In this document: positions 19,813-36,107 of the stretch, in pieces
Position numbering within the stretch: the first letter of the stretch is position 1
Layout of the letters: every line of letters begins with the position of its first letter
DNA from: a virus
Length of the DNA stretch: 42,362 nt
Reading direction: 5' to 3' (one strand)
Virus record (IMG/VR): IMGVR_UViG_3300032325_000557
Span: 1-42,362 of that record
Position numbers and translations under genes: made by a program
Notes under the pieces: generated by a model
What the model was told of the DNA's origin: nothing
Databases searched by the model: none
Seen by the model: the letters and a program-made list of their open reading frames with translations, nothing else

Positions 19813-20952
19813 ATGGCAACCCTAAAAAATACAATAATCAGTGCTAGTAGTGCAGTAACTACTCCAAATAACACACAAAGTACAGTAGCTGGAACCGGCA
19901 AACTTCGCTTTAACACCACTAACAGTCAAAATAGTTTAGAATTTTATGACGGAGTAGCATGGCGTCCAGTTACTGGATACAGCCAAGGAACTGTAGGCAC
20001 AGGTGGACAGACTATATCTTACATATTAGGAAATATTGTACATTTGTTTACTACGGTGGGCAATCATTCATTTACTCCAGCACACACAGGCACTGTTCAA
20101 GTGCTAGTTGTTGGTGCAGGAGCTGGTTCTGGATATGACTGGGCAGTTGGCGGCGGCGGTGGCGGCGTCATTATGAACCGCAGTTTTCCTGTTAGTGCTG
20201 GTACACCATATTCTATAACTGTCGGTGGTGGCTCAGTGGGCGGCGTTGATGGTGGATCTGGAAACGTTGCTGCATCAAACGGTGGTAATTCAGTATTCTC
20301 AACAATCACTGCTAGTGGTGGTGGAGGTGGTGGTTCATGGCAACCCAACGCACCAAGTTCTATGGACAACGGAAGAACCGGTGGCAGATCTGGAAGTTCG
20401 GGTGGCGGTGGATCTAATACTGGCGACGGAGTCGATAGTCGTCAGCGCAATTATGGCGGCAGAGGTATTGACGGACAAGGATATCCAGGAGGTTCTGGTA
20501 TTAGATTTAATGCAGATACTGAAAATACTCACCAAGGTGGAGGTGGAGGTGGAGCAGGCGGTCCTGGCGCAAGTGCTCCGGACGGACGTCAACGATATCG
20601 TTCGTCTTTTAGAGGTGACCAAATTGCAGGCGGCCCTGGTCGCGCAACAGATATTATTGGTGGAAACACTCTATACTTTGGTGGCGGTGGTGCTGGTGGT
20701 GGTCACCTAGGTTGGAACGTTAATGGTTCAGCTGGCGGTATCGGTGGTGGCGGTGGTGGTAGTTTCCACCATAGTGGACCCTACGGAGGCGACCGTAAAT
20801 TTGGACAAGGTGGTGGTCAATCATTAAACAACGGCGAAGATGGATTTGCCACAGCACGTGGTGGTGTAGGTGGTGCAAACACAGGCGGTGGTGGCGGTGG
20901 TGGACAGCACGGTCGCAATGGCGGATCTGGGGTAGTTATTATTAAATATTAA
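19813..20952 (+). CDS. Glycine-rich tail adhesin-like protein 3 (379 aa)
   Basis: Third tandem paralogue and last gene of the plus-strand structural run. The common framework is present: LRFNTTNSQNSLEFYDG followed by AWRPVTGY, HSFTPAHTGTVQVLVVGAG, MNRSFPVSAGTPYSITVGGG, GQGYPGGSGIRFNADTENTH, RATDIIGGNTLYFGGGGAGG, and GSGVVIIKY at the end. It has a longer loop region (RQRYRSSFRGDQIAGG) than its siblings. Its stop codon overlaps that of the convergent halogenase gene by 4 bases, so no intergenic terminator separates the structural run from the accessory island. Confidence 0.7.
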   Translation: MATLKNTIISASSAVTTPNNTQSTVAGTGKLRFNTTNSQNSLEFYDGVAWRPVTGYSQGTVGTGGQTISYILGNIVHLFTTVGNHSFTPAHTGTVQVLVVGAGAGSGYDWAVGGGGGGVIMNRSFPVSAGTPYSITVGGGSVGGVDGGSGNVAASNGGNSVFSTITASGGGGGGSWQPNAPSSMDNGRTGGRSGSSGGGGSNTGDGVDSRQRNYGGRGIDGQGYPGGSGIRFNADTENTHQGGGGGGAGGPGASAPDGRQRYRSSFRGDQIAGGPGRATDIIGGNTLYFGGGGAGGGHLGWNVNGSAGGIGGGGGGSFHHSGPYGGDRKFGQGGGQSLNNGEDGFATARGGVGGANTGGGGGGGQHGRNGGSGVVIIKY

Positions 20953-22514
20953 TCTTTGTAAAAAGTATCTCTAAGATACTGATACAACGAAGGGGCTGTT
21001 TCTACAGCCCTTTTCCATTTGTTTTTCTTCTGTTCGAGTTTTTGAATCACAATAGCGAACTCTTGTTTAAGATCAGTACCGACAGGAAAAATATGATTCA
21101 ACAAAGATACATCATTAGCATGCCAATTCATTCCAGCAGCCAAACAATTGATTCCTGGATCTTCCTGGAAATACCTCACAAAGTTTTTTTGGTACATGGT
21201 TTGATAGTATAATCCTTGTGTCTGTAATTTATTAACACTAGGTGCTAGTTTAATGTAAGATCGTTTTCCTATGTCTCGCCAATATTCCGAATCGTCCCTA
21301 TGGCTTAGAGCATAGTGCATTGAAACGAAATGAGCCCAATAGTTAAATTCGTCTTCACATTTTAAATTAAATTCATCTCGATCCCACTGACTTACACTTC
21401 CTCGAAGCAGCACACTACATAATGTTCGAGCGAATTCGTGAGTAGTAAGCAATCCTGTGCTTTCCAACGGTTCAATAAATGCAGCACTTAGACCTAGAGC
21501 AACAACATTTTTGACCCATAATCGCTCGTGTTTGCCAACTCTCATTTTAATATCTTTAAATTCACAACCTGAAGGATCATACCCTTTAGAAATTAAATGT
21601 GTTATGAAATCTTTTTTAGCATCTTCCGGACTTATGTACTTGTCGCTGTACACATATCCTGTACCAACTCGACTCCACAGTGGAATATTCCACACCCACC
21701 CGTTGTCTAATGCTGTACACTCTGTAACGCTATTAAGTTGAGTTTCTTTATCAGTGTAATTGATTCTAGTTGCCCATGCTCTATTATTAGGCAATAGATT
21801 TTCATAGCTAGTAAAAGGTTCATTTAACGCATCACCTAACAGCATAGATTTAAATCCCGTACAATCAACAAATAAATCTGCTGAAATCATATCACCATTG
21901 TCTAGAGTTAATGTTTCGATGCCATCGTCATTGGTTAAAATGTTAACCACTTCTGCTGAAATATGGCTAACTCCTCGAGGTTTACAATGATGATCTTTTA
22001 ACCATGCACCTAATTTTGCAGCATCAAAATGAAACGCCGTGTCGTTATAAAAATTGAAGTTATCTAGATCTATGTTATCTGTTAAAATTTTATTAGAGTT
22101 AACTAATGCCATTTGAGAATAATAACAATTTACATAATCTTCTGAAGGTGTTTCTGGATATAAGGCTTTTTTAATAAACCAATCATCTTTCAGGTGTAAA
22201 TTTCCTTCCAAACACGGAAGTCCGAACGGATAATACCAAGTACCTCCGTCTTTGTTATAGAAGTTATTAAATTTAATGGCAAGTTTGTACGATGCATCAG
22301 TGGCTTTGATAAAATCTTTATCTTTAATTCCTACCATACGCATCCATCCTCGAATTCCGCCAACGGTGCTTTCACCAACACCCACAGTAGGAACACTAGG
22401 ACTTTCGATAACACTGACTTCAACATCAACAAGTTGAGTGATTAGACTAGCTGCGGTTATCCAACCTGCGCTGCCCCCACCCACTACCACTATTTTTTTT
22501 ATTTTAGAGCTCAT
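20949..22514 (-). CDS. Flavin-dependent (tryptophan-type) halogenase 1 (521 aa)
   Basis: FADH2-dependent halogenase homologue. Enzymes of this family make hypohalous acid at the flavin and pass it, through a conserved Lys, to an electron-rich substrate. Seen here: the FAD-binding GGGSAGW at 12-18; GVGEST at 45-50; the catalytic-Lys position K77 in ASYKLAIKF; VDCTGF near 217-222; the family hallmark W273-V-W-N-I-P278; and EPLESTG near 348-354, whose E351 matches the catalytic Glu and whose STG matches the halide-site loop of PrnA. The full set of residues makes this the most canonical of the four homologues. The length is typical. The start ATG overlaps the stop of the 244-aa gene as ATGA, so translation is coupled. 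Halide and substrate are unknown. A related viral halogenase (VirX1, cyanophage Syn10) is known. Confidence 0.88.
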   Translation of the reverse strand: MSSKIKKIVVVGGGSAGWITAASLITQLVDVEVSVIESPSVPTVGVGESTVGGIRGWMRMVGIKDKDFIKATDASYKLAIKFNNFYNKDGGTWYYPFGLPCLEGNLHLKDDWFIKKALYPETPSEDYVNCYYSQMALVNSNKILTDNIDLDNFNFYNDTAFHFDAAKLGAWLKDHHCKPRGVSHISAEVVNILTNDDGIETLTLDNGDMISADLFVDCTGFKSMLLGDALNEPFTSYENLLPNNRAWATRINYTDKETQLNSVTECTALDNGWVWNIPLWSRVGTGYVYSDKYISPEDAKKDFITHLISKGYDPSGCEFKDIKMRVGKHERLWVKNVVALGLSAAFIEPLESTGLLTTHEFARTLCSVLLRGSVSQWDRDEFNLKCEDEFNYWAHFVSMHYALSHRDDSEYWRDIGKRSYIKLAPSVNKLQTQGLYYQTMYQKNFVRYFQEDPGINCLAAGMNWHANDVSLLNHIFPVGTDLKQEFAIVIQKLEQKKNKWKRAVETAPSLYQYLRDTFYKD

Positions 22515-23245
22515 ATTTTTTTAAATGGGCATTGACCAGCTTTAACTTCTTTTAGTTGTTGATACCTTTCTTTTAAAGGTTTAAAAGGATGTTCTTTTCT
22601 TATATCAGCACATACCTTAATCTCTTCCCACGGGATAGATTGTTCTACTAGTTTAACAATATCGTCACAATTAAATTTAAAATAACATAATGCATCACCT
22701 TTTTTGATTTCAACTTTTGAAATTTGATTCTTAAATTCCCATACAAGTTCGATCGGTCTAGTCCACTTACTGATATCGTACTCTCCGGGGATAATTGTAC
22801 ACTTATCGGTAAAATCATTATAGTGCATAAATGCAGGCAGCAATTGTACAAGTACAGATTCTGTACTAGTAAAGGTATTCAACCAATCTATTCCTATAAT
22901 CGGGTATGGATTAATTTTTGAATCGTTTCCTGATAAAAATCTAATATCTACAATTTTTTCAAATTGTTCTTGAGTTAGATTCTCACTCCATATTTCTCCA
23001 CGATGATCTTCTCTTATATTAGCAATTGTTAAATCAAACGGAGCACGAAACACAAAAATGTTTTTTAAAAAATCAGTGTGCGCAGGACATTTTAAATAAG
23101 TTGAACCTTTTCTTACCTCCACTGAATCTTTGGATAGTCTAGTATAGGGATAATAATCAGTATCGATCAAGGGTTTTATGCATTCTGGATTATCTTGATA
23201 CCACTCGATGCTAGTTCCAAACGACCATTTTACTTCTATTGTCAT
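22511..23245 (-). CDS. Unrecognised protein between two halogenases (244 aa)
   Basis: Not assigned to a family with confidence. It is a soluble protein with many beta-strand-like stretches and aromatic residues, no signal peptide and no membrane segment. Visible features are YYPYTRLSKDS, a YLKCPAHTDFLKN stretch containing H-x-D, WTRPIELVWEF, and IKKGDALCYFKF, which resembles the G-D-P/A turn of cupin-like barrels. The C-terminal 30 residues are Lys-rich and may be helical (FKPLKERYQQLKEVKAG). Both ends overlap the flanking halogenase genes by ATGA, so the three are made as a coupled unit. A partner, substrate-presenting or accessory role for the halogenases is inferred from this arrangement only. 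Confidence 0.7.
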   Translation of the reverse strand: MTIEVKWSFGTSIEWYQDNPECIKPLIDTDYYPYTRLSKDSVEVRKGSTYLKCPAHTDFLKNIFVFRAPFDLTIANIREDHRGEIWSENLTQEQFEKIVDIRFLSGNDSKINPYPIIGIDWLNTFTSTESVLVQLLPAFMHYNDFTDKCTIIPGEYDISKWTRPIELVWEFKNQISKVEIKKGDALCYFKFNCDDIVKLVEQSIPWEEIKVCADIRKEHPFKPLKERYQQLKEVKAGQCPFKKI

Positions 23246-24711
23246 AATTTAGTTAACTCTGAAATTCGATCAACTTCTTTGCTATGTGGTCTACTCCAAA
23301 TATGTCGATTTTTTTCGTGTTCGATATAACTTTTAACCAACATTTCACATGCAATTTCTGTAGGAATAGACAATGGCCTATTAGCCAACGTATACCCTAA
23401 CTGTATCAACATCAAACTCCAGTTAGATCCTCCAAACATATAATTATATTTGCCTGCATTTGGTACAGCTATGTTAGGATTTTCAAGCTCATTAATAAAA
23501 TGTATCATCCTAGTTGAAGGTTGAAATCTTTCTTTAACCCAGTTCCAAAATTTACTAGATCGATGGTTATTTGCATAATGCATGCTGACAAAGTCTACAC
23601 AATCCTCAAATAGTATTTTCATCTGTAAATTAAAATTCATACGATCGATATCGCTGAAATGTCTCTCGTAAATAGCACTATTCAATTGACCAATACCGTA
23701 GGTAATTAATCCAATACCTGTGCTCTCCAACGGCTCAATGAACCCAGAACTCAGGCCAATAGTTACCACATTTTCAGCCCATTGATCTTCATTGTAAAAC
23801 GGATCCCAGTGAATAACTCTGATATTTTCTTTTTTAATTCTGTTATCCCAGTGATTAACAAAATAGTCTTTGGCTTCTTCAATATCAGTAATGTCTCGAT
23901 TAAACACCATTCCGCTGCCTATTCTTGATGCCACACCAATTTTCCAGATCCAACCGTGATCAACAGCTTCACATTCTGCATAAGGTTTAAATTCAGATTC
24001 TCGATTTTGATAAGGCACCGGGCATGCTATTGCAGTGTTTACAAACAGGCGATCGCTTAGGTCAATACGATGCAATGGCTTGCGCAAAACATTTTTAAAA
24101 CCAGTACAATCAATATATAAGTCACTGTAAACTAATTCTTCGTTTTTTAATTTTAACGATTCGATGGTGTCGTTGTCTTTGTAATTAACCGTCATAACAT
24201 CTGAACGGATGATATTGATTTTGTCTTTTAGATGTTCTTGCAAAAATACAACTAGTTTCCCGCAGTCAACATGAAACCCGTAATTATCAATAGCATTAAC
24301 ATCTACTCCGTTGTGTTCTATTGACAAATCGTAACACGATAATGAATATTTTTTAAAATCAAGGTGTTGATTGCAAGACCAACTGTCCCAAGTATTAACA
24401 CCGTTGAAAAGTTTTCTGTTTCCTTTATAAAACGGATGCCAGATGTCGTCATCTTTTTCACGCCAATTAGAAAATAATATTCCGGATTTATACCCAGCAT
24501 CTAACGGAATAAACCAATCTTCTATTTTAAATCCGCATTCTTCCATAAACGGTTTAAAACTCAATAGTGTTGCTTCGCCCACGCCAATAGGTGTACCTAT
24601 TTCCTTATCTACCACAGTTATTTTTATGTCAGGTTGATTTTTATACAAATACGCAGCAGTGAGCCACCCACTAGTTCCGCCCCCGACAATGGTTATACTG
24701 GATACATTCAT
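23242..24711 (-). CDS. Flavin-dependent (tryptophan-type) halogenase 2 (489 aa)
   Basis: Second halogenase homologue. GGGTSGW (10-16) binds FAD, and GVGEAT (43-48) follows. K75 in DAGYKSGILFSNW sits at the catalytic Lys position, IDCTGF is at 200-205, and IEPLESTG (near 325-332) keeps the catalytic Glu (E329) and the STG halide loop. The hallmark W-x-W-x-I-P reads W254-I-W-K-I-G259: the final Pro is Gly, unlike halogenases 1 and 4. I chose the ATG at 24711 because AAGGGAA lies 5 bases upstream and the FAD motif then begins at the normal distance; an in-frame GTG at 24735 would add 8 residues. It is the first gene of a three-gene coupled operon. Confidence 0.85.
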   Translation of the reverse strand: MNVSSITIVGGGTSGWLTAAYLYKNQPDIKITVVDKEIGTPIGVGEATLLSFKPFMEECGFKIEDWFIPLDAGYKSGILFSNWREKDDDIWHPFYKGNRKLFNGVNTWDSWSCNQHLDFKKYSLSCYDLSIEHNGVDVNAIDNYGFHVDCGKLVVFLQEHLKDKINIIRSDVMTVNYKDNDTIESLKLKNEELVYSDLYIDCTGFKNVLRKPLHRIDLSDRLFVNTAIACPVPYQNRESEFKPYAECEAVDHGWIWKIGVASRIGSGMVFNRDITDIEEAKDYFVNHWDNRIKKENIRVIHWDPFYNEDQWAENVVTIGLSSGFIEPLESTGIGLITYGIGQLNSAIYERHFSDIDRMNFNLQMKILFEDCVDFVSMHYANNHRSSKFWNWVKERFQPSTRMIHFINELENPNIAVPNAGKYNYMFGGSNWSLMLIQLGYTLANRPLSIPTEIACEMLVKSYIEHEKNRHIWSRPHSKEVDRISELTKL

Positions 24712-24729: not shown

Positions 24730-24784
24730 ATACACTATACTTATATTTTTTTAGTACCACGGAGAAAATTCGTAAATAGTGTAT
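24730..24784. promoter_or_regulatory. Divergent promoter region with 9-base inverted repeat
   Basis: The short region between the halogenase 2 operon (minus) and the oxygenase operon (plus) is bounded by ATACACTAT (24730-24738) and its exact reverse complement ATAGTGTAT (24776-24784). On the minus strand TATAAGTA (24745-24738) is one base from the T4 late consensus. On the plus strand CGTAAATA (24771-24778) precedes the ATG by 12 bases. The region probably drives both operons. Confidence 0.4.
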
Positions 24785-25370
24785 GATAAAGATTGTTGAT
24801 AATTTCATCTCGAAACAATTCCAAGAAGAAATTAAGAGTACTCTACTAGGACACAGTTTTCCTTGGTACTTCACTGAAGACATCACTTTTGGAAAATCTT
24901 TGGTTGAATCTCAAAACCTAGGGCAACCACACCCGGCGCATGCTCATTTATTTTGCAGAAATAAAAAACCTACAAGCAATTATTTTGATATGGTATTACC
25001 ATTGGCCCATTTCGGTGCATCAGAAGCTAATTTTAAATTTAATGAAGTTGTGCAATGTCGAAGTTTTTTACAATATCCGCTAAACAATAGTTTTTTAGAG
25101 AAACATGTAGACAAACTGCACATTGATTTGCCATATGATCATTTAGTTGTGTTATATTATGTGGTAGATTCGGACGGAGATACTTTAATTGTAGATAAAA
25201 TTAGAGAAGGAGACATTGAAGAATATCATCATAACGTTGAAGACTATAACATAATTCAACGAGTTAAACCAAAACAAGGCAGGGCTGTGATATTTAACGG
25301 TAAGTATTATCATACAGCAGAACAGCCGACACACCATATGAGATGTATTATTAATTTTGACATTATATAA
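24783..25370 (+). CDS. 2OG-Fe(II) dioxygenase-like protein, 'DSDGDT' type (195 aa)
   Basis: Small 2-oxoglutarate/Fe(II)-dependent dioxygenase homologue of the prolyl-hydroxylase-like fold. The double-stranded beta-helix motifs are in order: H108-V-D110 (proximal iron ligands), LYYVVDSDGDTLI (about 124-136), FNGKYYHTA with H177 (distal ligand) and R187 in MRCIINFDI (2OG carboxylate). The N-terminus (MIKIVDNFIS, HSFPWYF) is shared with the proteins at 25370, 30543, 32785 and, more weakly, 33394, so these five are paralogues. It is the first of four plus-strand oxygenase genes with overlapping ends. No clear ribosome-binding site sits at the usual spacing; a late promoter-like CGTAAATA lies 12 bases upstream of the ATG. 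The substrate is unknown. Confidence 0.8.
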   Translation: MIKIVDNFISKQFQEEIKSTLLGHSFPWYFTEDITFGKSLVESQNLGQPHPAHAHLFCRNKKPTSNYFDMVLPLAHFGASEANFKFNEVVQCRSFLQYPLNNSFLEKHVDKLHIDLPYDHLVVLYYVVDSDGDTLIVDKIREGDIEEYHHNVEDYNIIQRVKPKQGRAVIFNGKYYHTAEQPTHHMRCIINFDII

Positions 25371-25978
25371 TGGATAATAAAATTCGTATAATAGATAATT
25401 TCTTGCCAGATCTTGAATTTGCAAAATTACAAGAATATATTCTATCGGTTAATTTTCCTTGGTTTTATTGTGAACATGTATCATTGCCTCCTGCAGAAAA
25501 TTTTATTACAGATCCGCTAGCTGTTGAGACTGATGGGTTTCATCATATCTTTTATGATAAAGAATATGATGTTGAAAGTTTTGCTACCGAATATTTAAAT
25601 AATTTTTATAAAAGATTAGAAGAGCAACTGGGATTTACAAAAAATAATTTTATCAGAATTAGGTCTAGCATGAAAAGCCCCAAACTTGGTTTTACATCAG
25701 AAAATTATAATTTACCCCACATTGATTATTTTTTCCCTCATGAAACCTTAATATACTATCTCAATGACTCAGACGGCGATACACGTATTTTTGATCAAGA
25801 ATTTGCACAAACTAAAAATAATTGGGACGAAGAGCCGGAAAAGTTTACAACTAAATGTAGGATTACTCCAAAGGCAAATAGACTGTTATGGATAGACGGA
25901 TTTCGATATCACACTGCCAGCAACCCAATAGAATCAAAAAGAAGAGTTATTATCAATATTAATCTATTACCAAGATGA
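25370..25978 (+). CDS. 2OG-Fe(II) dioxygenase-like protein, 'DSDGDT' type (202 aa)
   Basis: Paralogue of the preceding oxygenase. H117-I-D119 are the expected proximal ligands, YYLNDSDGDTRIF (about 129-141) marks the subfamily, and H181 in FRYHTA plus R191/R192 in KRRVIININ give the distal ligand and the 2OG-binding Arg. The N-terminal NFPWFYCEH is also shared. The iron and co-substrate residues all appear intact, so an active dioxygenase is likely. Its ATG overlaps the preceding TAA by one base (TAATG), indicating coupled translation. The substrate cannot be read from the sequence; hydroxylation of protein side chains or of a small molecule are both possible. Confidence 0.8.
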   Translation: MDNKIRIIDNFLPDLEFAKLQEYILSVNFPWFYCEHVSLPPAENFITDPLAVETDGFHHIFYDKEYDVESFATEYLNNFYKRLEEQLGFTKNNFIRIRSSMKSPKLGFTSENYNLPHIDYFFPHETLIYYLNDSDGDTRIFDQEFAQTKNNWDEEPEKFTTKCRITPKANRLLWIDGFRYHTASNPIESKRRVIININLLPR

Positions 25979-26589
25979 GATTAGATCACTTATTTCCTAT
26001 TCCGATCGTTAGAATAACAGTTGACCCTGCAATAGTCGAGTCCACCACAGCTCTAGTTGATCAGTATATTCAATCTGAAAAATTATTAGAAGCGGAACAA
26101 CCACATCAAGAGTTACTTACAACTTTTTACAATCATAAAGATTTTTTAGGAAAACTTAATGACCAAAAACTTTTAAAGTATATAAATTTAAAAGCAAGAG
26201 AATTTTTAAATCTTCGAGGATTTAATCCAAAATGTTATTTAGAAATTACTTCTTGGCTACAATTATATCCTACAGGAACACATTTCAACAAGCACGATCA
26301 CTATGGTGCAATAATCAGCGGAGTGCTATATTTAAAAGCCCCAACAAACTGCGGAAATATAAGATTTTATAATCCCATCACAGGACGACGAGCGACTGAT
26401 GTATTTTTTGAAAACATAAAAATAACATCCAACGAATATAATTATCACTATGTTGAATATACACCAATAGAAGGGGAAATGATCATGTTCGAATCCTGGC
26501 TTGAGCATTCAGTTGATATGAATTTATCACCTGAAAACAGAATTGCGGTTTCTTTCAATATTTGGGGAGATAAAGATGTCCCAAGTTGA
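25975..26589 (+). CDS. 2OG-Fe(II) oxygenase-like protein, 'SGVxYL' type (204 aa)
   Basis: Member of a second oxygenase-like group in this island, resembling the putative 2OG-Fe(II) oxygenase family common in T4-like marine phages (2OG-FeII_Oxy_5 type). Motifs: NKHDHYGAIISGVLYL with H107-x-H109 at the first metal site, CGNIRFYNP (about 126-134), EGEMIMFESWLEHSV with H178, and R189 in NRIAVSFNIW. The HxH pair in place of the classical HxD recurs in the paralogues at 26576, 28615, 29262 and 29924. The ATG overlaps the previous stop as ATGA. An enzymatic role is probable but less sure than for the DSDGDT type. Confidence 0.72.
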   Translation: MRLDHLFPIPIVRITVDPAIVESTTALVDQYIQSEKLLEAEQPHQELLTTFYNHKDFLGKLNDQKLLKYINLKAREFLNLRGFNPKCYLEITSWLQLYPTGTHFNKHDHYGAIISGVLYLKAPTNCGNIRFYNPITGRRATDVFFENIKITSNEYNYHYVEYTPIEGEMIMFESWLEHSVDMNLSPENRIAVSFNIWGDKDVPS

Positions 26590-27157
26590 GCTGTGGTTTC
26601 CTGTCGCAATATATAAAGAAGATAATCTAATATCGGAAGAAGAAAATAACGAGTTAGTGAAATACTCTTTGAGTCTTAGAGATAAGATTCCCTCTGGCGG
26701 CGAAGATTGGTACGGAGATACTTACAATACCCACGGAACATATGATCTAAGAAAAGATATAAAATTTAGACCGCTATTAAATTTAATATCAATGCATGTG
26801 AACAGTTTTGCTAAAATGCACAACTCCAACGGCGTCTATGAAATTAGTTATGCATGGTTAAACATAAACGATACAAACTCGTATCAAGAACTGCACACAC
26901 ACAATGCTGCTATCTTTAGTTGTTCATACTATCTATCGGCTCCGGAAGGATCAGGCGGCATTGTATTTGAAGACCCAAAAGAACCTGATATGTTTCCTTT
27001 GAAAGCAATCTCAGATAAAAATCAATTAAGTTTTACCAGAATAAAATATGCTGCGACTGAAAGAACATTAATAGCATTTAGATCTTATCTAAGACACATG
27101 GTTCAACCTGGTACTAATGTTGAGCCTAGAATATCTATTGCTGTTAATTTTACTTAA
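26576..27157 (+). CDS. 2OG-Fe(II) oxygenase-like protein, 'SGVxYL' type (193 aa)
   Basis: Fourth gene of the plus-strand oxygenase operon. I used the ATG at 26576, preceded by GGGGAGA at good spacing, rather than an in-frame start 33 bases upstream, because the downstream start gives the typical LWFPVAIYKED opening of this family. Motifs: QELHTHNAAIFSCSYYL with H107-x-H109, GSGGIVFEDP (about 125-134), AFRSYLRHMV with H174, and R185 in PRISIAVNF. The gene overlaps the preceding one by 14 bases. It ends at a convergent junction with two AT-rich hairpins. The substrate is unknown. Confidence 0.75.
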   Translation: MSQVELWFPVAIYKEDNLISEEENNELVKYSLSLRDKIPSGGEDWYGDTYNTHGTYDLRKDIKFRPLLNLISMHVNSFAKMHNSNGVYEISYAWLNINDTNSYQELHTHNAAIFSCSYYLSAPEGSGGIVFEDPKEPDMFPLKAISDKNQLSFTRIKYAATERTLIAFRSYLRHMVQPGTNVEPRISIAVNFT

Positions 27158-27269: not shown

Positions 27270-27294
27270 ATGAATAATCTCTTATTCATTTTTA
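27270..27294 (+). terminator. AT-rich hairpin followed by T-run at the convergent junction
   Basis: ATGAATAA (27270-27277), loop TCTC, TTATTCAT (27282-27289), then TTTTTAA. It could end plus-strand transcription. It overlaps the stop codon of the convergent halogenase 3 gene. Confidence 0.4.
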
Positions 27295-28622: not shown

Positions 28623-29265
28623 CTTTATTTTTCTCTGGAACTTGAAATTTATAATTTCCCGACACACTTATTCGATACTTATCGGATGTGTAGAAAGGAG
28701 CAACTGAGTGATTTAACTCTGCGGGGAATAAGAAAAAATGATTTTCCATACTAGTATCTGCATCAATGTCTTGATGACATATTTTCCCTAAACTGTTGGT
28801 GTAGTGAAATGTAAATTTTCCTGCTAACGGATTTGAAGATTCAGCTCCTGGGGAGTGTATATTTTCATCCTCCATCTTATAAGGAATTTCTATCCAAATT
28901 ACAAATGATAATATGCCGCTATGATTGTGAGATGGATTAAATTCGTGCTTCGCTTGAAAGTTAACCCATGCAGAATCTAAAGTTAATAAACAATCCGAAG
29001 TTAACGTAGATATTGAACTAAGATATCCAAACGAATTATCAAACTCCCAAACATACGGTTCGAATATTTTTTTAATATGTTCTTTAGATTTGATTAATTC
29101 GAATTCTTTTTTAATATTTCCAACAAGTTTTTGATTATGTTTTTTAGCTAGATTAAAATTATTTTGAATTTCTAAAATTTCTTCTTTAAGAGGAGCAAGA
29201 TCTTCTTCAGACAATATTGCGGTAATAACGCCAACATTCGGAAATTGTAAAGTTTTTAAGTTCAT
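28615..29265 (-). CDS. 2OG-Fe(II) oxygenase-like protein, divergent 'SGVxYL' type (216 aa)
   Basis: Divergent relative of the SGVxYL-type group. The core reads NPSHNHSGILSFVIWIEIP with H113-x-H115, KFTFHYTNSLG in place of the usual short strand, and ENHFFLFPAELNHSV with H186 followed by R198 in KYRISVSGNYKF. A helical, Lys/Glu-rich N-terminal third (about 20-70) is longer than in its relatives. It overlaps both neighbours (ATGA with the 29262 gene; 8 bases with halogenase 3), placing it in a coupled operon that delivers a halogenase and two oxygenases together. Whether it is catalytic is uncertain. Confidence 0.68.
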   Translation of the reverse strand: MNLKTLQFPNVGVITAILSEEDLAPLKEEILEIQNNFNLAKKHNQKLVGNIKKEFELIKSKEHIKKIFEPYVWEFDNSFGYLSSISTLTSDCLLTLDSAWVNFQAKHEFNPSHNHSGILSFVIWIEIPYKMEDENIHSPGAESSNPLAGKFTFHYTNSLGKICHQDIDADTSMENHFFLFPAELNHSVAPFYTSDKYRISVSGNYKFQVPEKNKDE

Positions 29266-29885
29266 GTTAAATTAATTGTTAAGTTATCCACAGTTATGTC
29301 AGATCCAAAATTACCAAATGTAAACGAATTAAATCCGATAATTCTCCTATCTGTCAGACTTTCGTTGTTGCTTACTCGATGGCTGACCCAGCTTGGAAAG
29401 ATTACAAGCATATTTGGTTTTAGCCCCAATAACCAACTTTTTGAGTTTAATAAATTGTATTCGTCGATGGTATATTCAAACTGAAAGTTTTTAGAAAAGG
29501 CCGGCTCGAATAATAATTCTAAATCTCCGCTGGTCACGTCGACGTAAAACACTCCGGAAAAAATACTGTTACCGTGAGAGTGTTCGGCGTGGAATGTATT
29601 TTTTGGATTCCTAGTAGACCAGCTATCAGTTATCGCAAATTGATTTTTGATTTTTAAAATATCATAGACATAATGAGCCAGCGCCTTTTGAAAGCTAGAT
29701 TTTAAATCTTTAAATTCTGGTATTTCTAATATTTGACGATTTATAGAAACATAATTGTTACCACCACCACCAGATAGTTTCTCTTCTAAATTTATTAGAG
29801 TATTGTATTCAATAGGAGTTAGCTGTCTAAAGTCCTCGACTATTAATAGCGGAATGCTGGCCAGTGGTATTAGCAATTCTTTCAT
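29262..29885 (-). CDS. 2OG-Fe(II) oxygenase-like protein, 'SGVxYL' type (207 aa)
   Basis: First gene of the operon leading to halogenase 3. Motifs: HAEHSHGNSIFSGVFYV with H102-x-H104, DLELLFEP (about 121-128), MLVIFPSWVSHRV with H169, and R180/R181 in DRRIIGFNSF. The N-terminus (LIPLASIPLLIVEDF) resembles the opening of phage 2OG-FeII_Oxy_5-like proteins. A Gly run (SGGGGNN, about 38-44) is unusual for this family. It is transcribed divergently from the 29924 gene across a 38-base region. The ATG follows AGAAG. The substrate is unknown. Confidence 0.72.
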   Translation of the reverse strand: MKELLIPLASIPLLIVEDFRQLTPIEYNTLINLEEKLSGGGGNNYVSINRQILEIPEFKDLKSSFQKALAHYVYDILKIKNQFAITDSWSTRNPKNTFHAEHSHGNSIFSGVFYVDVTSGDLELLFEPAFSKNFQFEYTIDEYNLLNSKSWLLGLKPNMLVIFPSWVSHRVSNNESLTDRRIIGFNSFTFGNFGSDITVDNLTINLT

Positions 29886-29923: not shown

Positions 29924-30541
29924 ATGTTCACGTTAACTGAAAATCTACTATTTGTAACATCATGCTTTATTACTTATATCAACACCACAGACCATAAAGG
30001 CATAGTTGATGCTATAGAAAAAATACAATCTACAGATGTTGGTAATCAACGCAGTAACGAAGGTGGATTCCAATCGAAAGTGATTCATTCGCCAAATTTT
30101 GATAACTCAGTAACGGCCGATTTATTTAATAATGTTATCTATCCAGCAGCTAGCATGGTGGCTAAATCTTGGTCATTGCCTTCTAACATGGACAGAGTCG
30201 GTTATTGGTACAATGTCAATTACAAGTATTCTTCGAATAGAGAACATACACATCCTAATGCTTTCTTAAGTGGAGTATATTACGTCAAAGTTCCTGAAAA
30301 CAGCGGAAACATAATATTCCTACGAGCAAATTCAGAGCACGATAAAATGGAATTTATACATAACAAGATCTCAGAAGAGGATCTTCAGATTGATAATAAT
30401 AGGATCAACACCGAGCATTGGTACACTCCGGTGGAAGGAATGCTAATTTTGTTTCCGGGACACTTATCTCACTATGTGCGACAAAATTTAACTAATGAAA
30501 TCGATGATAGAAGAATCTCATTATCGTTTAACTTTTATTAA
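29924..30541 (+). CDS. 2OG-Fe(II) oxygenase-like protein, 'SGVxYL' type (205 aa)
   Basis: A single plus-strand gene between two minus-strand operons. Motifs: NREHTHPNAFLSGVYYVKVP with H108-x-H110, SGNIIFLRA (about 127-135), GMLILFPGHLSHYV with H183, and R196/R197 in DRRISLSFNFY. It is the closest in this island to the common phage 2OG-FeII_Oxy_5 pattern. No ribosome-binding site is visible upstream, and a perfect TATAAATA lies so close that the mRNA may be leaderless. Its stop is directly adjacent to the stop of the convergent 30543 gene, leaving no room for a terminator. Confidence 0.75.
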   Translation: MFTLTENLLFVTSCFITYINTTDHKGIVDAIEKIQSTDVGNQRSNEGGFQSKVIHSPNFDNSVTADLFNNVIYPAASMVAKSWSLPSNMDRVGYWYNVNYKYSSNREHTHPNAFLSGVYYVKVPENSGNIIFLRANSEHDKMEFIHNKISEEDLQIDNNRINTEHWYTPVEGMLILFPGHLSHYVRQNLTNEIDDRRISLSFNFY

Positions 30542-30542
30542 C

Positions 30543-31187
30543 TTATTCAAAATCAAAATTAATTACAATTCTAGAACTGTAGTTAACTGGGTAATTACCT
30601 GCATGATATCGATGGCCGTTAAAAAATAATCCCTGCCCTTTCTTCGGTGTTATTCTTACTAGTTCCGGTAGTGGCTGTGCAAAAATAGGATTGTACTCTT
30701 CTTCTTGGGGATTAAAAATTTTATCAAAGATAATCGTATCACCGTCGCTGTCGTCTACATAATATACTAGAGTGCTGTATGGATGCCCTGTATTGAAATC
30801 AACATGCGGAGCAGCATATTTAAATCCGTCGTGACCTCGACCTTTGTGGGTATATCGCAGTCTTATTCTTAAAACATTGTTTACTTTGATATTTGTTTTT
30901 TCTGTAAAAAATTCTAATATTGCTCTAAAGAAATCATAATGAACTGATGCTGAGTTTCCATCAAATGCCATATGAAAAAAGCCAACATCGTCTGTGATGT
31001 TAGGATCAAGATATTCTGGAGTGGTTCCTATACCGTAATGATCCGGGTGACCGATTCTATGCAACAGGAACCAAGGAAAGTGTTGATCTCCTTGAATTCT
31101 ATTAATTATTGCATTTTGAAAAGACTCAGGTACTACGTTATCAATAACTAGTATTTCGTCTTTGATTTTATTAATTCGATAGTCCAC
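30543..31187 (-). CDS. 2OG-Fe(II) dioxygenase-like protein, 'DSDGDT' type (214 aa)
   Basis: Oxygenase of the DSDGDT subfamily. H128-V-D130, LVYYVDDSDGDTIIF (about 140-154), FFNGHRYHAG with H195, and R206 in SSRIVINFDF form a complete set of metal- and 2OG-binding residues. The N-terminal HFPWFLLHR is shared with the 32785 and 25370 proteins. It overlaps the end of the halogenase 4 gene by 17 bases, so it is translated from the same message. This pairing (halogenase followed by a complete oxygenase) suggests that the two act in the same pathway, which remains inference. Confidence 0.8.
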   Translation of the reverse strand: MDYRINKIKDEILVIDNVVPESFQNAIINRIQGDQHFPWFLLHRIGHPDHYGIGTTPEYLDPNITDDVGFFHMAFDGNSASVHYDFFRAILEFFTEKTNIKVNNVLRIRLRYTHKGRGHDGFKYAAPHVDFNTGHPYSTLVYYVDDSDGDTIIFDKIFNPQEEEYNPIFAQPLPELVRITPKKGQGLFFNGHRYHAGNYPVNYSSRIVINFDFE

Positions 31188-32721
31188 GGTCTGATCTAAT
31201 CTTTCTAAAATAATTTATAAATTCCTCGTATGTTTGATAGTTCCTAATCTCTCTAGAAAACTCGTCTTGCAAATCATAGTATGCTTGCGCAGTGATATCA
31301 CGAAGATTGCCGTGCATCAGAATTGAAAAATCTAATTCAGTCAATGCATTGGTGTTGTTTAGTCGATTTATACCAGCCATGACATAGCTGTATAAGGCCC
31401 ATCCTGCAGATCCTGCATATCGAGGAAAATCGTGAGAGGTTGGCAATCTAGTTTTAGCCATTTCTAATAGGTCTTCAACGAACGGAGTTTTAGTAACGCC
31501 TGTATTAATGTACTTCCAAAATTCAGAATCACTACGACCGCCCATGTAATGCATAACTAGAAAATCCTTAACATCGTCAAACATTTTTCTGGTTCTTTGA
31601 TTATATATATTTTGCGATCCTGAATTTATTGTATCATCGAGTGTGGGTTTAATATATTCAAAGATTAAGGTTCTTCCTTGAACGATAGTTGAATGTATGG
31701 ATGTTGCTTCTAGGGGTTCTAAAAATGCCGAGCTAAGGCCGATGGTTATACAATTATTAATCCATGCAGAGTCCTGTCGCCCAGTGTCAAATTTAATAAC
31801 TTTAATGGGATCAATTTCTTGACCTAGTATAGTTTCGATCTCTTCTTGAGCTTTATCCGGAGTTGTAAAGGCATCACAAAACACATAGCCGCATCCCTTT
31901 CGATCCATCAAGGGAATCTGCCACATCCATCCATTCTTTTGCGCCCAGGCAGTTGTATATGGTTCAGGAATCTCGTGCTGTTTATACTTTAATTGAAAAG
32001 GCAACCCGGTATTTAACGGAAGATTTTTTTGATAACTGACCCATTTGTTTCCTGGCATATGTTTCATTAACACTCTACCAAAGCCAGAGCAATCAATGAA
32101 TAGATCACCCTCAACGATATTGCCGTTTTTCAATACTACTGATTTAATAAATCCGCGTTCATCTAAATTTGCATTAACTACTTCGTCGTCAATATGTCTA
32201 GCATTGCGCTCAACCAGACATTTCTTTTTAAAATATTTTCCAACTAGCAGAGCATCGACATGCATTGCGTGTCTATAATTGGCAAATTGATTAGTGTCTT
32301 TTTCAAAATTAGATACACCTTTGTCTATCCAGTATCCGCACTGCGACACATTAACTAGTTCTTTTGGATGTAATCGATTTAGGCCGTAGGCAAATAATGC
32401 GTCTGGAGTAGCTTCTTTGGTATGGCTGCCGTCAATCGGCCCTAGATAGTAGTCATCTATTGAGTTAGTCCACCCTTTGTGTTTAATTGCATATTTTAAA
32501 GTAGCACCTGTTTCGATAATGAACTCGTCATGATCACAACCAAAATCAGCTCCATGATTAATTAAGATATCAGTTAAGTATCCGGTAGTACTTTCGCCGA
32601 CACCGATAACTCCAATTTTAGTAGATTCAATAACAGTGATATTATGATTCGGATGTCGTTTAGTAGCCATTAGGGCAGTGGCCCACCCAGCGGTTCCTCC
32701 ACCCACAATTACAATTTGCAT
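31171..32721 (-). CDS. Flavin-dependent (tryptophan-type) halogenase 4 (516 aa)
   Basis: Fourth halogenase homologue. GGGTAGW (7-13), GVGEST (40-45), K76 in GATLKYAIKHKGW at the catalytic Lys position, IDCSGF (209-214), a canonical W265-M-W-Q-I-P270, and LEPLEATS (334-341) with E338 at the catalytic Glu position. The halide-loop STG of PrnA-type enzymes is ATS here, as in halogenase 3, so these two may form a subgroup. AAGGAA precedes the ATG at good spacing. It is followed by an overlapping 2OG oxygenase gene. Its full length suggests a complete substrate domain. Substrate, halide and partner flavin reductase are not identifiable; no reductase gene is seen in the window. Confidence 0.87.
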   Translation of the reverse strand: MQIVIVGGGTAGWATALMATKRHPNHNITVIESTKIGVIGVGESTTGYLTDILINHGADFGCDHDEFIIETGATLKYAIKHKGWTNSIDDYYLGPIDGSHTKEATPDALFAYGLNRLHPKELVNVSQCGYWIDKGVSNFEKDTNQFANYRHAMHVDALLVGKYFKKKCLVERNARHIDDEVVNANLDERGFIKSVVLKNGNIVEGDLFIDCSGFGRVLMKHMPGNKWVSYQKNLPLNTGLPFQLKYKQHEIPEPYTTAWAQKNGWMWQIPLMDRKGCGYVFCDAFTTPDKAQEEIETILGQEIDPIKVIKFDTGRQDSAWINNCITIGLSSAFLEPLEATSIHSTIVQGRTLIFEYIKPTLDDTINSGSQNIYNQRTRKMFDDVKDFLVMHYMGGRSDSEFWKYINTGVTKTPFVEDLLEMAKTRLPTSHDFPRYAGSAGWALYSYVMAGINRLNNTNALTELDFSILMHGNLRDITAQAYYDLQDEFSREIRNYQTYEEFINYFRKIRSDRGLSN

Positions 32722-32784: not shown

Positions 32785-33366
32785 TTATAGTTTAATAAAA
32801 TTAAAATTGATTACCATCCTGTAATCACAATTTCTAGGGTGCATTCCTGCATGCAACACATTACCGTTGAAAACTATAATTCTACCTTTCTTTGGAGATA
32901 TGCGGTGTTTAACAGTTACGGTATCTGGATCAAACAAAAACGTGTCACCGTCGCTGTCATTTACATAATAAATCATAACCCAATGTTTATGATTGCTATC
33001 AACGTGGGGCGTTTGATGAGCGTTGACATTTTCAACAGTTACTCGAGGACATAAATTAGCCTTAATTCTTATAATTTTTGAATTAAAATTATAAGCGGTA
33101 GATATTGTTTGAAATAATATTAAAGGTAAATCAACAAATTTAGAATTTATTTTTTCATCAGACACAAAATTATGTGTAAATTGTGTATACTCAAAGAGAT
33201 TATTAGTAATATTTTTATAATACTGATACTCATTAGGTGTTGCAGTTAAATTTTTGTGCTTACATAAAAACCATGGAAAAAAAGAATCCTCAAATAATTC
33301 TTGTATCTGATTTTGTAATCCTACAGGAATTACATTATCGTCGATAAAAATTTCTTGGTTAAACAT
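32785..33366 (-). CDS. 2OG-Fe(II) dioxygenase-like protein, 'DSDGDT' type (193 aa)
   Basis: DSDGDT-subfamily oxygenase with all expected residues: H121-V-D123 in QTPHVDSNH, MIYYVNDSDGDTFLF (about 131-145), VFNGNVLHAG with H172, and R183 in DYRMVINFNF. The N-terminus (FIDDNVIPVGLQNQIQELF, FFPWFLCKH) matches the 30543 protein best, and the two flank halogenase 4 on the same strand. No strong ribosome-binding site is visible before the ATG, and TATATAAGA lies about 15 bases upstream. The composition is notably Asn-, Phe- and Ile-rich, in line with AT-rich DNA. The substrate is unknown. Confidence 0.78.
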   Translation of the reverse strand: MFNQEIFIDDNVIPVGLQNQIQELFEDSFFPWFLCKHKNLTATPNEYQYYKNITNNLFEYTQFTHNFVSDEKINSKFVDLPLILFQTISTAYNFNSKIIRIKANLCPRVTVENVNAHQTPHVDSNHKHWVMIYYVNDSDGDTFLFDPDTVTVKHRISPKKGRIIVFNGNVLHAGMHPRNCDYRMVINFNFIKL

Positions 33367-33393: not shown

Positions 33394-33996
33394 TTACACA
33401 TAGGTAACCACAAACACTACCCTCCTAGAACCCATAGATGGAAATCGATGTGCATGCCACAACTCTTGAAATGTAACAGCAGTGTATTGTTCACAGGGGA
33501 TTATATAACTGGTGGAGAAATCGTCAGGCCAAATAATTGTCTGTCCCTGATCACAGCTATTTAGATACATTATAAAATTATAATGAGGCCAGCTATGATC
33601 TCGATGTGGTTCGGTATGCCCTGTGCCGTTATGCCAATTTAAATTTAAGTTTGCTCTAAAAATCTTTTTGTATTTTAAACCATTTTCCATCATGTACCTA
33701 TGAAAAATTTCTATAAAAAATTCATAAAATTCACTGAAGTGGTTGAGAGGTCTATCTGTATGATTAATTGATTCGTCTTCAGTCCTGCGCAGTAGTGTAT
33801 GACTAAGAAACGGCGAATTAACCTGACTGATATAGGGTCTAATCGGTTCAGGCAAATACTCAAGAGACTTATTCATAGTTTGCTGACCAATATAATACCA
33901 AGGAAACATTTGCCCTAGTATCGTAGTTTCTATAATTTCTTGTTCTCGAGGATATAGAGTAACAGGAGCGCAGGTAATCGAATCTAAAATAGTCAT
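33394..33996 (-). CDS. 2OG-Fe(II) dioxygenase-like protein, divergent (200 aa)
   Basis: Divergent member of the FPWY oxygenase group. The N-terminus has GQMFPWYYIG, as in its paralogues. The first metal site reads HTEPHRDHSWPHYNFIMYLN with H131-x-D133. The DSDGDT signature is replaced by NSCDQGQTIIW. The distal site is ELWHAHRF with H181 (H183 is a second candidate), and R191/R192 in SRRVVFVVTYV match the 2OG-binding Arg. An active enzyme is therefore plausible. The gene reads divergently from the 34103 gene across a 106-base gap that holds a plus-strand late promoter motif. No Shine-Dalgarno sequence is seen before its ATG. Confidence 0.7.
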   Translation of the reverse strand: MTILDSITCAPVTLYPREQEIIETTILGQMFPWYYIGQQTMNKSLEYLPEPIRPYISQVNSPFLSHTLLRRTEDESINHTDRPLNHFSEFYEFFIEIFHRYMMENGLKYKKIFRANLNLNWHNGTGHTEPHRDHSWPHYNFIMYLNSCDQGQTIIWPDDFSTSYIIPCEQYTAVTFQELWHAHRFPSMGSRRVVFVVTYV

Positions 33997-34066
33997 TTTT
34001 TATATTTAACTATGATTTTTTATCAAGTGAGCAAACCCGGAATGTTAAGGATACAGCTATCTGCCT

Positions 34067-34074: not shown

Positions 34075-34102
34075 AAAAACAAAATCACCAACGGAGTATT
34101 TT

Positions 34103-34723
34103 ATGACACAACATAATGAAGAATTGTCATTTGAACAGACTGACAGTTTTACTGATTTAGCAGAACTTACCAATAAAACAGCATCTTTAGATATTGTATC
34201 GATTAATAAATCAAATTTATTTTCAAAAGAAGAATGCGATCAAATTTTAAATAGTTCTATAGAAGAGTTATGGCTTCCAGCCAAGGTAATAGGTAATGAA
34301 AAATTACACGTCGGTCGTCGACAAAAAGTTCGAGGTGATGTGACTGGTTTCCCTTTTATGAATATTCGATCAGTTACAAAAAAAGCAAACGACGAAATAT
34401 ATGATTTTAACCTATTAGGTATCATTGATCAAGACTTTCCTCAGCTGTTTAAGTACTCTGAAAAAGAATATTATGATTGGCATTTTGATTTAAACATTAT
34501 GATGCCGTCTAGAAAGATAACATTTATAATTAATCTTACAGATCCTGCAGAATATCAGGGAGGTGAAATTGAATTTTTAAATATAGATACATCCGCAGTT
34601 GATATCGACGAGCAAGGATCGTGCTTGATATTTCCGTCGTACATTCCCTATAAAATAAATCCAATTAAGAAAGGTACCAAACATGTTCTCGTAGGGCATG
34701 TACACGGAGCATTGTTTAAGTGA
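34103..34723 (+). CDS. 2OG oxygenase-like protein with altered metal site (206 aa)
   Basis: Clearly related in layout to the P4H-type oxygenase encoded next door at 34720: YYDWHFDLN (H127-x-D129), ITFIINLTDPAEYQGGEIEF (about 139-158), then CLIFPSYIPYKINPIKKGTK. In the neighbour the same segment reads FPSHIYHQVTPVTKGTR, so the distal iron-binding His is replaced by Tyr183 and the 2OG-binding Arg by Lys193. This protein is therefore probably an inactive or altered partner rather than a normal dioxygenase. An N-terminal extension (about 1-40), rich in Glu and Thr, precedes the fold. Its stop overlaps the GTG start of the next gene (GTGA), which supports a heteromer or scaffold role for it, as inference. 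Confidence 0.68.
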   Translation: MTQHNEELSFEQTDSFTDLAELTNKTASLDIVSINKSNLFSKEECDQILNSSIEELWLPAKVIGNEKLHVGRRQKVRGDVTGFPFMNIRSVTKKANDEIYDFNLLGIIDQDFPQLFKYSEKEYYDWHFDLNIMMPSRKITFIINLTDPAEYQGGEIEFLNIDTSAVDIDEQGSCLIFPSYIPYKINPIKKGTKHVLVGHVHGALFK

Positions 34724-35505
34724 TATTAAAATATAATTACTGGTATTTTTTATCAGCAATCCCCCCAAGTATTTGTGATCAAATTATGGAGATGGGGTTG
34801 ACTTCTATGCACGAACAAGAAGAAAAATACGGTAAGGGAGTTTCGAATGCATCGGTGGGAGGATGGCGACACAAAACTGATAACAGTCACATACCTGCTA
34901 AATCAGCCTCGACAGAGGGACTGCATAAAAAAGGAATAGATCCAGAAAAAACCTATGTTCGAGACTCCTCGGTTGCCTGGCTAAACGATCCAGGCATATA
35001 CGATATAATTTGGGGATTTGTTAAGCAAGCAAACAAAGCAGCAGGATGGAACTTTGATTGGGATTATACTGAAGATTTACAATTTACAAAATATAGTCCA
35101 GGCCAGTTTTATGGTTGGCATACAGATGTCGGAGTAGAGCCATACCGAGCATATGATCCAGCAGTAGACACATATCATAAAAATCCAGACGGATCTATAG
35201 CACTCGATACATTTGGAAAGCCATTAGTTGAAAATCAGTCCACAACCGAAAACCCAAATTTGGTAGGTAAAATACGCAAACTCAGTGTTACCGTAAGTTT
35301 AAATGACCCATCAGAATACAAGGGAGGTAATTTAAAATTTGATCTTGGACCACACGGAAAAAATCGGTATCATACCTGTACAGAAATTCGTCCACGAGGA
35401 TCGATCATTGTTTTTCCATCACACATATATCATCAAGTTACACCTGTAACTAAAGGCACACGCTATAGTTTAGTTGCATGGAATTTAGGAAAACCTTTCC
35501 GATGA
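34720..35505 (+). CDS. 2OG-Fe(II) dioxygenase, prolyl-4-hydroxylase-like (261 aa)
   Basis: Complete P4H/PiuC-like dioxygenase. TKYSPGQFYGWHTDVG contains H134-x-D136; RKLSVTVSLNDPSEYKGGNL (about 186-205) is the typical middle strand; GSIIVFPSHIYHQVTPV has H238; and R248 in KGTRYSLVAWNLG binds 2OG. An insertion of about 40 residues follows the HxD motif (about 142-183), with DPAVDTYHKNPDGS and NQSTTENPN, and is a candidate substrate lid. The start is GTG, overlapping the previous stop as GTGA, so translation depends on the upstream altered homologue. It is the most typical dioxygenase of the island. Confidence 0.84.
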   Translation: MILKYNYWYFLSAIPPSICDQIMEMGLTSMHEQEEKYGKGVSNASVGGWRHKTDNSHIPAKSASTEGLHKKGIDPEKTYVRDSSVAWLNDPGIYDIIWGFVKQANKAAGWNFDWDYTEDLQFTKYSPGQFYGWHTDVGVEPYRAYDPAVDTYHKNPDGSIALDTFGKPLVENQSTTENPNLVGKIRKLSVTVSLNDPSEYKGGNLKFDLGPHGKNRYHTCTEIRPRGSIIVFPSHIYHQVTPVTKGTRYSLVAWNLGKPFR

Positions 35506-36107
35506 ACAACCCAGAAATTTTTAAAGAAAACAAGTATCTTGATTTAAAAAATATCATTCCTTCTGATATGTGTAAAATCATAACCAAGTATTCTCTTCTA
35601 AAAGAAGAAACCGAGTTCACTCCAGAATTAGGAAAAGATGCTCAGGTAGAAAATGCACATTCTGTTTACAGTGATACATTGATGGAAACAATGTCATATT
35701 TTTTACTACCTCATATGGAGAAAAATACCGGGTTATCTCTATGTCCAACCTACACATATTATAGAGTATATCGCCCTGGGATGATTTTAGATAGACATAA
35801 AGATAGACCAAGTTGTGAAATAAGTACAACTGTGTGTTTTGGTTTTAATTACAACAATACCGACCCCGATTATAGATGGGGAATGTATGTTGAGCCAAAC
35901 ATCTTAATAACACAAAATCCAGGTGATTTGATTGTGTACAGAGGGTGCGAAGTAGATCATTGGAGAGATCCGTTTAATGTTGGACCCAGAAGCTATCAAG
36001 TCCAGGCGTTTTTTCACTACATTGACAAAAACGGTCCGTTTTATCCAGAATATGCATACGATAAACGCCCCGGACTCGGGTATCGACTTGATAAAATGCA
36101 TAAATAA
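35502..36107 (+). CDS. 2OG-Fe(II) oxygenase-like protein (201 aa)
   Basis: Third gene of this operon. The ATG at 35502 overlaps the preceding stop (ATGA), and is preferred over an in-frame start 24 bases upstream. Motifs: YYRVYRPGMILDRHKDRPS with H99-x-D101, ISTTVCFGFNYN, a long GMYVEPNILITQNPGDLIVYRG strand pair (about 127-148), and H153 in EVDHWRDPF with R163 in PRSYQVQAFFHYID. The pattern fits phage 2OG oxygenases that hydroxylate unknown targets. The C-terminal 25 residues (YPEYAYDKRPGLGYRLDKM) are an extension beyond the fold. Its stop codon lies inside a late promoter motif for the next gene. Confidence 0.74.
   Translation: MNNPEIFKENKYLDLKNIIPSDMCKIITKYSLLKEETEFTPELGKDAQVENAHSVYSDTLMETMSYFLLPHMEKNTGLSLCPTYTYYRVYRPGMILDRHKDRPSCEISTTVCFGFNYNNTDPDYRWGMYVEPNILITQNPGDLIVYRGCEVDHWRDPFNVGPRSYQVQAFFHYIDKNGPFYPEYAYDKRPGLGYRLDKMHK
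36099..36106 (+). promoter_or_regulatory. T4-type late promoter motif (CATAAATA)
   Basis: CATAAATA overlaps the end of the 35502 gene and lies 30 bases before the 36129 start. A transcript beginning near 36112 would include the GAGGAG ribosome-binding site at 36121-36126. Confidence 0.45.

Follow-up and report, generated by a model that had tools for sequence, protein, structure and literature searches.

What use would a phage have for seventeen oxidative enzymes encoded side by side? The question is raised by the island at positions 20949-36107 of IMG/VR virus record IMGVR_UViG_3300032325_000557, a linear fragment of 42,362 bases that was analysed at its full length and is referred to here as the window. 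The island contains eighteen protein genes with a coding share of 97% and gaps of 124 bases at most, and its guanine-plus-cytosine content is about 0.34, compared to 0.40-0.50 in the flanks. The initial annotation had counted four halogenases, thirteen 2-oxoglutarate (2OG)/Fe(II)-type proteins and one unknown; Pfam and PHROG matches, together with AlphaFold2 models searched by Foldseek, upheld these counts and coordinates. All eighteen genes could be assigned by family or fold, as four PF04820 halogenases (H1 to H4), thirteen 2OG/Fe(II)-type proteins (O1 to O13) and one protein of dUTPase-like fold (U), with the starts of H2, H3 and O4 (the fourth 2OG gene) corrected to 24711, 28622 and 26576, respectively. 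Elsewhere in the window, no further halogenase or 2OG/Fe(II)-type gene was found. Such a density is unusual: INPHARED matches to H1 came from 65 records, with at most three places per record among the matches listed, and H1 matches in the IMG/VR relatives repeatedly numbered 4-6 per contig. The answer that we favour, with modest confidence, is that these enzymes halogenate and hydroxylate the adhesins encoded beside them before assembly.

The evidence that carries this answer concerns the real extent of the unit, which spans positions 17590-38589. On the plus strand it begins with three tandem Gly-rich adhesins matching PF21722 (Gly_rich_2), A1 (17590-18651; E-value 7e-14), A2 (18662-19798; 2e-9) and A3 (19813-20952; 9e-10), which are probably tip proteins for host recognition. 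Beyond the enzymes it continues with a plus-strand tail (fibre) assembly chaperone (TAC, 36129-36566; PF16778, E-value 3e-14; PHROG tail fiber assembly) and, on the minus strand, a GroEL homologue (36624-38288; PF00118, E-value 2e-73) and a GroES-like protein named by its sequence and its pairing with GroEL (38281-38589), the right border of the block. Reciprocal best hits were run across 29 loci, the genes of the relatives being mechanically called open reading frames and most of the relatives, like the window, fragments. The order and relative strand of A1-A3, H1, U, H2, O1-O4, H3, O5-O8, H4, O10-O13, TAC, GroEL and GroES were kept in about 14 IMG/VR contigs (G001-G007, G009, G010 and G013-G017), apart from some losses and some additional genes and halogenases. 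The IMG/VR contigs found with A2 all belong to this enzyme-cassette set (6 of 6). Among the carriers, median identity was 0.60-0.74 for A1-A3, the halogenases and GroEL, compared to 0.40-0.53 for the flanking fibre and neck genes.

The exchange of the block as a whole was seen in comparisons with individual relatives. The fibre genes BIG2, s3 and F1 of the window are 80-87% identical to those of G019 (F1 80%), and the neck genes s4, s5, S6 and S7 are 90-98% identical (S6 94%), yet from A1 to GroES G019 has no close orthologue of the window genes, carrying in their place a different adhesin trio (194, 173 and 185 residues), three halogenases, several 2OG genes and, where the chaperone would be, small genes. 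Between G009 and G015, which have the borders in common, identity is 83-91% in the flanks and about 48-67% in the block. The window and G005 share a cassette mostly 73-93% identical alongside fibres of 34-58% and S6 of 82%. In enzyme-free relatives, found by means of a neck gene, the large fibre gene adjoins the neck genes, and the sampled flank contains no small adhesins in tandem; this neck-gene set is the less biased part of the association evidence. The replacement in G019, the G009-G015 pair and the enzyme-free relatives therefore imply that adhesins and enzymes are gained, lost and replaced together. Adhesins and chaperone are replaced jointly at fixed borders, as in the adhesin/assembly-chaperone cassettes of tailed phages, where small adhesins and a PF16778 chaperone are swapped in the same way; in contrast to such ordinary cassettes, this unit also includes seventeen oxidative enzymes and a chaperonin pair. 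The multi-step oxidative system linked to adhesins that had been suggested for the island is thus sustained in its linkage, seen as joint presence, absence and exchange, and not in the Trp residue named as a possible target, discussed below.

A recombination hotspot would leave some of the same traces: the slot would gather unrelated oxidative accessory genes, and the linkage to adhesins would reflect nothing other than their sharing that hotspot. The slot is variable, gene content differs among islands, and O9 has no close orthologues in the related cassettes. On the other hand, orthologue order and strand are conserved over about 14 contigs at 50-90% identity, only two enzyme families plus U accumulate, and the same association recurs in cyanophages with different genes, so that we regard this explanation as rather unlikely.

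The four halogenases, all on the minus strand, are H1 (20949-22514; PF04820 E-value 5e-105), H2 (23242-24711; 2e-83), H3 (27282-28622; 3e-94) and H4 (31171-32721; 1e-92). Their full-length PF04820 scores of 281-353 bits compare to a curated cut-off of 21, and all four carry the flavin motif GGG[ST][AS]G[WF] (GxGxxG type). The catalytic Lys and Glu of each enzyme (K77 and E351 in H1, K83 and E337 in H2, K91 and E342 in H3, K76 and E338 in H4) are invariant among the 10-18 orthologues aligned; H1 (WVWNIP) and H4 (WMWQIP) match the WxWxIP motif in full, and H2 (WIWKIG) and H3 (WMFNIP) depart from it. As judged from sequence, H1-H4 are tryptophan-type flavin-dependent halogenases of the PF04820 family. 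In a tree of 77 sequences built by a quick method with support from the Shimodaira-Hasegawa-like approximate likelihood-ratio test (SH-aLRT), H1 grouped exclusively with phage enzymes, VirX1 and others from cyanophages among them, H2 grouped with the enzyme of S-SSM7, and H3 and H4 each joined a separate, additional phage clade; the phage label required 3 changes on the tree versus 18 in shuffles. As the four lie in separate phage clades, they are old, distinct enzymes, and recent duplication was ruled out as their origin. The nearest cellular halogenases to H4, at 34-40% identity, are from Alphaproteobacteria, a kinship that we did not take as evidence of the host. Bacterial genomes also contain halogenase arrays, in Sphingorhabdus, Caulobacter and Cellvibrio, where two to four tryptophan halogenases are adjacent in some loci, but bacterial and phage enzymes occupy mostly separate clades, and neither a phage-type 2OG gene nor an A-type Gly-rich adhesin was detected within 10 kb of 80 bacterial halogenase loci. 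Four bacterial loci (L204, L207, L230 and L251) have three or four tryptophan-halogenase homologues in succession, without phage-type 2OG genes.

The thirteen 2OG/Fe(II)-type proteins were assigned by three routes. Nine passed the gathering score that Pfam sets for PF13640 or PF13759: O1 (24783-25370, plus strand; PF13640, E-value 4e-6; phrog_274), O9 (32785-33366, minus; 4e-8), O11 (34103-34723, plus; 5e-9) and O12 (34720-35505, plus; 1e-12) for PF13640, and O3 (25975-26589, plus; 1e-20), O4 (26576-27157, plus; 2e-17), O5 (28615-29265, minus; 8e-10), O6 (29262-29885, minus; 5e-16) and O7 (29924-30541, plus; 3e-20) for PF13759. O2 (25370-25978, plus; E-value 8e-32), O8 (30543-31187, minus; 2e-26) and O10 (33394-33996, minus; 4e-23) share phrog_274 with O1, itself above the PF13640 gathering score. 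For O13 (35478-36107, plus), the AlphaFold2 model, with a predicted local distance difference test score (pLDDT) of 84, has a prolyl-4-hydroxylase-like fold, its best solved matches being prolyl-4-hydroxylases, first the Pseudomonas putida enzyme (4j25, Foldseek E-value 5e-9, and 4iw3), also solved with EF-Tu, on which it acts, and at lower rank PBCV-1 vCPH and PHD2; identity to the P. putida and PBCV-1 enzymes is about 11-16%. With nine placed by Pfam, three by phrog_274 and one by fold, all thirteen assignments stand, and by match or predicted beta-helix fold all thirteen belong to the 2OG/Fe(II)-type family. The HxD..H iron triad is present in eight (O1, O2 and O8-O13), read as HID..H in O2, HVD..H in O8 and O9 and HRD..H in O10; residues H117, D119, H181 and R192 of O2 and H131, D133, H181 and R192 of O10 are invariant. 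The five PF13759 proteins, O3-O7, have HxH..H..R instead, as do the solved, uncharacterised relatives 3bvc and 2rg4 (matched by O7), and their chemistry is less certain because HxH replaces HxD. The PHROG labels 'DNA endonuclease V' (phrog_274) and 'ferrochelatase' (phrog_2954, on O13) fall on 2OG-type proteins at 24783-25978, 30543-31187, 33394-33996 and 35478-36107, and cyanophage records carry both labels for genes in such islands too.

Between the window and two close relatives, the ratio of non-synonymous to synonymous substitution rates (dN/dS) was 0.02-0.15 in the computable island genes (0.02-0.03 for H4, 0.03 for O8), synonymous change being saturated for some others, U and H2 included; the computable genes are under purifying selection. 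A hydropathy scan of the island proteins revealed neither signal nor membrane segment, and the enzymes thus look cytosolic by sequence. The T4 late-promoter motif TATAAATA (102 counted, 101.9 expected) and sigma-70 promoters (75 counted, 73 expected) both occurred at chance level, and a search of phage records for near matches to the island DNA returned none.

The gene content of the island bears on what the enzymes act upon. In natural-product pathways halogenase and 2OG families are usual, and the halogenase/2OG/carbamoyltransferase cluster of cyanophages S-SSM7 and S-SSM6a was read in that sense, its product being proposed as a secondary metabolite or, alternatively, a polysaccharide decoration (PMC7824862). 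That cluster, in a T4-like phage, resembles the window in having halogenase and 2OG genes near tandem adhesins, and H2 belongs to the S-SSM7 clade. It differs in carrying carbamoyltransferases, a sugar kinase, an isomerase and an epimerase, none of which the island has: by Pfam and PHROG, no carbamoyltransferase, sugar-modifying enzyme, glycosyltransferase, carrier, non-ribosomal peptide synthetase or polyketide synthase, or transporter was found among the island genes. A block that produced a diffusible halogenated and oxidised small molecule or peptide would therefore do so with thirteen hydroxylases and no scaffold-building, carrier or export gene, and the dense coding described above leaves scant space for a precursor peptide. 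Since no glycosyltransferase, carrier, precursor peptide or transporter is present, both a small molecule and a glycan are counted against; the former also leaves the joint exchange with adhesins unexplained. We consider a small-molecule pathway less likely than adhesin modification, and in itself improbable.

Alteration of the host surface deserves more weight. The enzymes could modify the host surface or the receptor, either a protein or a polysaccharide precursor, so that progeny escape trapping or other phages are kept out, and they would travel with the adhesins because both fit one receptor. Joint exchange would be accounted for here too, and the neighbouring type of cyanophage cluster has been proposed to decorate capsular polysaccharide (PMC7824862). 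However, the block has no glycosyl-, sugar- or membrane-linked gene and its proteins look cytosolic, and we judge this explanation unlikely, if the most plausible of those set beside adhesin modification.

The association is not confined to the cassette of the window. Tandem Gly-rich adhesins stand beside halogenase and 2OG genes in other islands (G032, G041 and G044) and in the cultured phages Syn9, Syn10, S-WAM1, P-RSM6, P-TIM40, S-CREM1, S-RIM44, Sf-CH3, Sf-FR1 and S-SZBM1. In these phages, adhesins of about 250-270 residues (matching PF21722 in those tested) are accompanied by a short gene resembling a chaperone, by one or two halogenases and by 2OG-type genes in a row; Sf-CH11 has one adhesin only. 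The lone halogenases of S-MbCM6, S-PM2, S-B64 and AG-345-O18 have neither an adjacent adhesin nor a 2OG string. Because many loci were picked by halogenase similarity, this is an association among halogenase loci and not an unbiased census. The earlier statement that such phages were known for single halogenases needed correction, as there are two in each of Syn9, P-RSM6 and P-TIM40 and three in S-RIM44. In Syn9, gp39 (L154:5669-6847, 392 residues) looks internally repeated and frameshifted relative to its Syn10 counterpart (272 residues), possibly through a sequence error. In a relative (L092 13000-21560), several tandem small adhesins (167-331 residues, W.P..P motif) accompany a chaperone-like gene and a single gene each for a halogenase and a 2OG protein, an adhesin-enzyme association without Gly-rich adhesins.

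The same survey places a characterised enzyme in such a locus. Syn10 CPUG_00131 agrees exactly with fragments of the sequence solved as VirX1, and VirX1 thus lies in an adhesin-enzyme locus, four genes past the first of two Gly-rich adhesins. VirX1 (PDB 6qgm) is the nearest solved structure to H1 (E-value 1.5e-103) and belongs to the same phage clade. The Syn10 locus has tandem Gly-rich adhesins, a chaperone-like gene, a halogenase, VirX1, a protein at the position of U and then 2OG genes, much like the window; it differs in having two halogenases instead of four, and of the two loci only that of the window has the GroEL/GroES pair; the enzymes of the window lie on both strands. VirX1 has been described as a trimer that accepts a broad range of substrates and whose active site is large and accessible (PMC8407142); such a site would suit a protein side chain. 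The literature searched contained neither a discussion of the VirX1 locus nor a natural substrate for VirX1.

The marine T4-like cyanophage framing of the initial annotation found no support. The photosystem gene psbA was absent from the 35 related records searched, and S6 (39279-40856, minus strand), a gp15-like tail sheath stabiliser in the right flank outside the block that matches annotated tail sheath completion proteins, has its nearest relatives, about 30% identical, in jumbo phages whose hosts are Pseudomonas, Sinorhizobium and Agrobacterium; neither a marine origin nor a cyanobacterial host is supported. This bears on a 2010 proposal for cyanophages, in which 2OG proteins reduce host 2-oxoglutarate and so steer nitrogen signalling (PMC3037559). 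Thirteen diverged 2OG proteins, the halogenases and joint exchange with adhesins are left unexplained by that proposal, and as neither psbA nor anything else points to a cyanobacterial host, it is very hard to credit for the window. Protection of the host from antibiotics has also been proposed for phage 2OG and halogenase genes (PMC2984593). Adhesins figure in none of these published proposals, and the full-text literature searched, which includes few subscription journals, yielded no suggestion that connects phage tail fibres or receptor-binding proteins with halogenases or 2OG enzymes.

Where on the adhesins might modification fall? The Trp of the WRP[VI]TG motif, suggested earlier as a possible target, sits in the N-terminal fibre domain, it recurs as DG..W in other structural proteins of the window (T1 and T2), and it is also kept in a G047 protein without a Gly-rich domain; it was rejected as the main candidate and is probably structural. 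In an alignment of 43 A-type proteins, the Gly-rich domain has conserved positions W226 (41/43), Y407 (40/43), H344 and H417 (41/43 each), and these conserved Trp, Tyr and His residues appear from the alignment to be the better candidates.

From these observations we infer the substrate, residues, halide and benefit as follows. The cassette, which spreads and recombines between phages as one block, would be a receptor-recognition unit that carries its own tailoring enzymes. The cytosolic-looking enzymes would act on newly made adhesins prior to tail assembly, each halogenase placing Br, I or Cl on certain Trp, Tyr or His residues within the Gly-rich domains and each 2OG protein hydroxylating others (Pro, Asn, Asp, Arg or Lys), and the modifications would alter host binding by the adhesin tips. 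The likeness of the O13 model to protein prolyl hydroxylases counts for this scheme. Halogenated and hydroxylated residues also occur in marine animal adhesives and worm jaw proteins, which are Gly- and His-rich too. More tentatively, the receptor-binding tips of phages from two or more unrelated groups (T4-like cyanophages, and a lineage resembling jumbo phages) might be encoded as substrates of halogenases and hydroxylases that are dedicated to them and can be swapped as a set. The adhesins on the virions would then be hydroxylated as well as brominated, iodinated or chlorinated; this could be the natural role of VirX1 and of many phage 2OG oxygenases.

Several points weigh against adhesin modification. 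We know of no experimental demonstration of halogenation or hydroxylation of a phage adhesin, no flavin reductase was seen in the window, and the five HxH proteins may perform other chemistry. Trp and Tyr content was not clearly enriched in the adhesins relative to Gly-rich proteins outside cassettes, of which there were few as controls. G028 and G025 have 2OG genes near adhesins and are halogenase-free in the sampled stretch, and G047 and G027 have few enzymes or lack a clear adhesin trio. Finally, linkage and joint exchange would also fit enzymes that are matched to a host or receptor and do not act on the adhesin.

The remaining island gene encodes U (22511-23245, minus strand; phrog_17480), which overlaps H1 and H2 by 4 bases each and is conserved across 13 sequences. 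It matched no Pfam family; its AlphaFold2 model (pLDDT 85) has a dUTPase-like (beta-clip) fold, to which Foldseek matched dUTPases weakly and unnamed proteins of other phages more clearly. The identity of U between the window and G005 or G006 is 55-57%, compared to 74-97% for its cassette neighbours. Genes of similar appearance follow halogenases in cyanophages and in G032 and G044, and a profile comparison with the cyanophage proteins at the equivalent position gave a weak match (probability 20%, E-value 0.0012). Among the other neighbours, GroEL/GroES (36624-38589) may fold the adhesins or the enzymes; the pair is absent from alternative cassettes such as that of G019. The left border is formed, outside the block, by F1 (16603-17583, plus strand), a fibre protein with a Peptidase_S74 chaperone (PF13884, E-value 5e-13). 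Further upstream, a fibre protein of 2,559 residues (8568-16247) has seven stretches matching the CBM_5_12 carbohydrate-binding module, and two tandem paralogous structural proteins (364 and 350 residues) are encoded at 3-2281, ahead of the large fibre genes.

For more than 15 years, the halogenases and 2OG oxygenases of phages have been catalogued as metabolic genes of unknown purpose, and labels such as 'DNA endonuclease V' and 'ferrochelatase' mask the 2OG-type proteins that lie beside adhesins. Linkage and en-bloc exchange now point to a specific, testable substrate, the adjoining tandem Gly-rich adhesins, which are present in cultured cyanophages. If this is true, phages would tune host recognition through post-translational chemistry, and their tips would vary chemically as well as in sequence. 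Sequence alone would then fall short for predicting host range, and these islands would offer halogenases that act on proteins.

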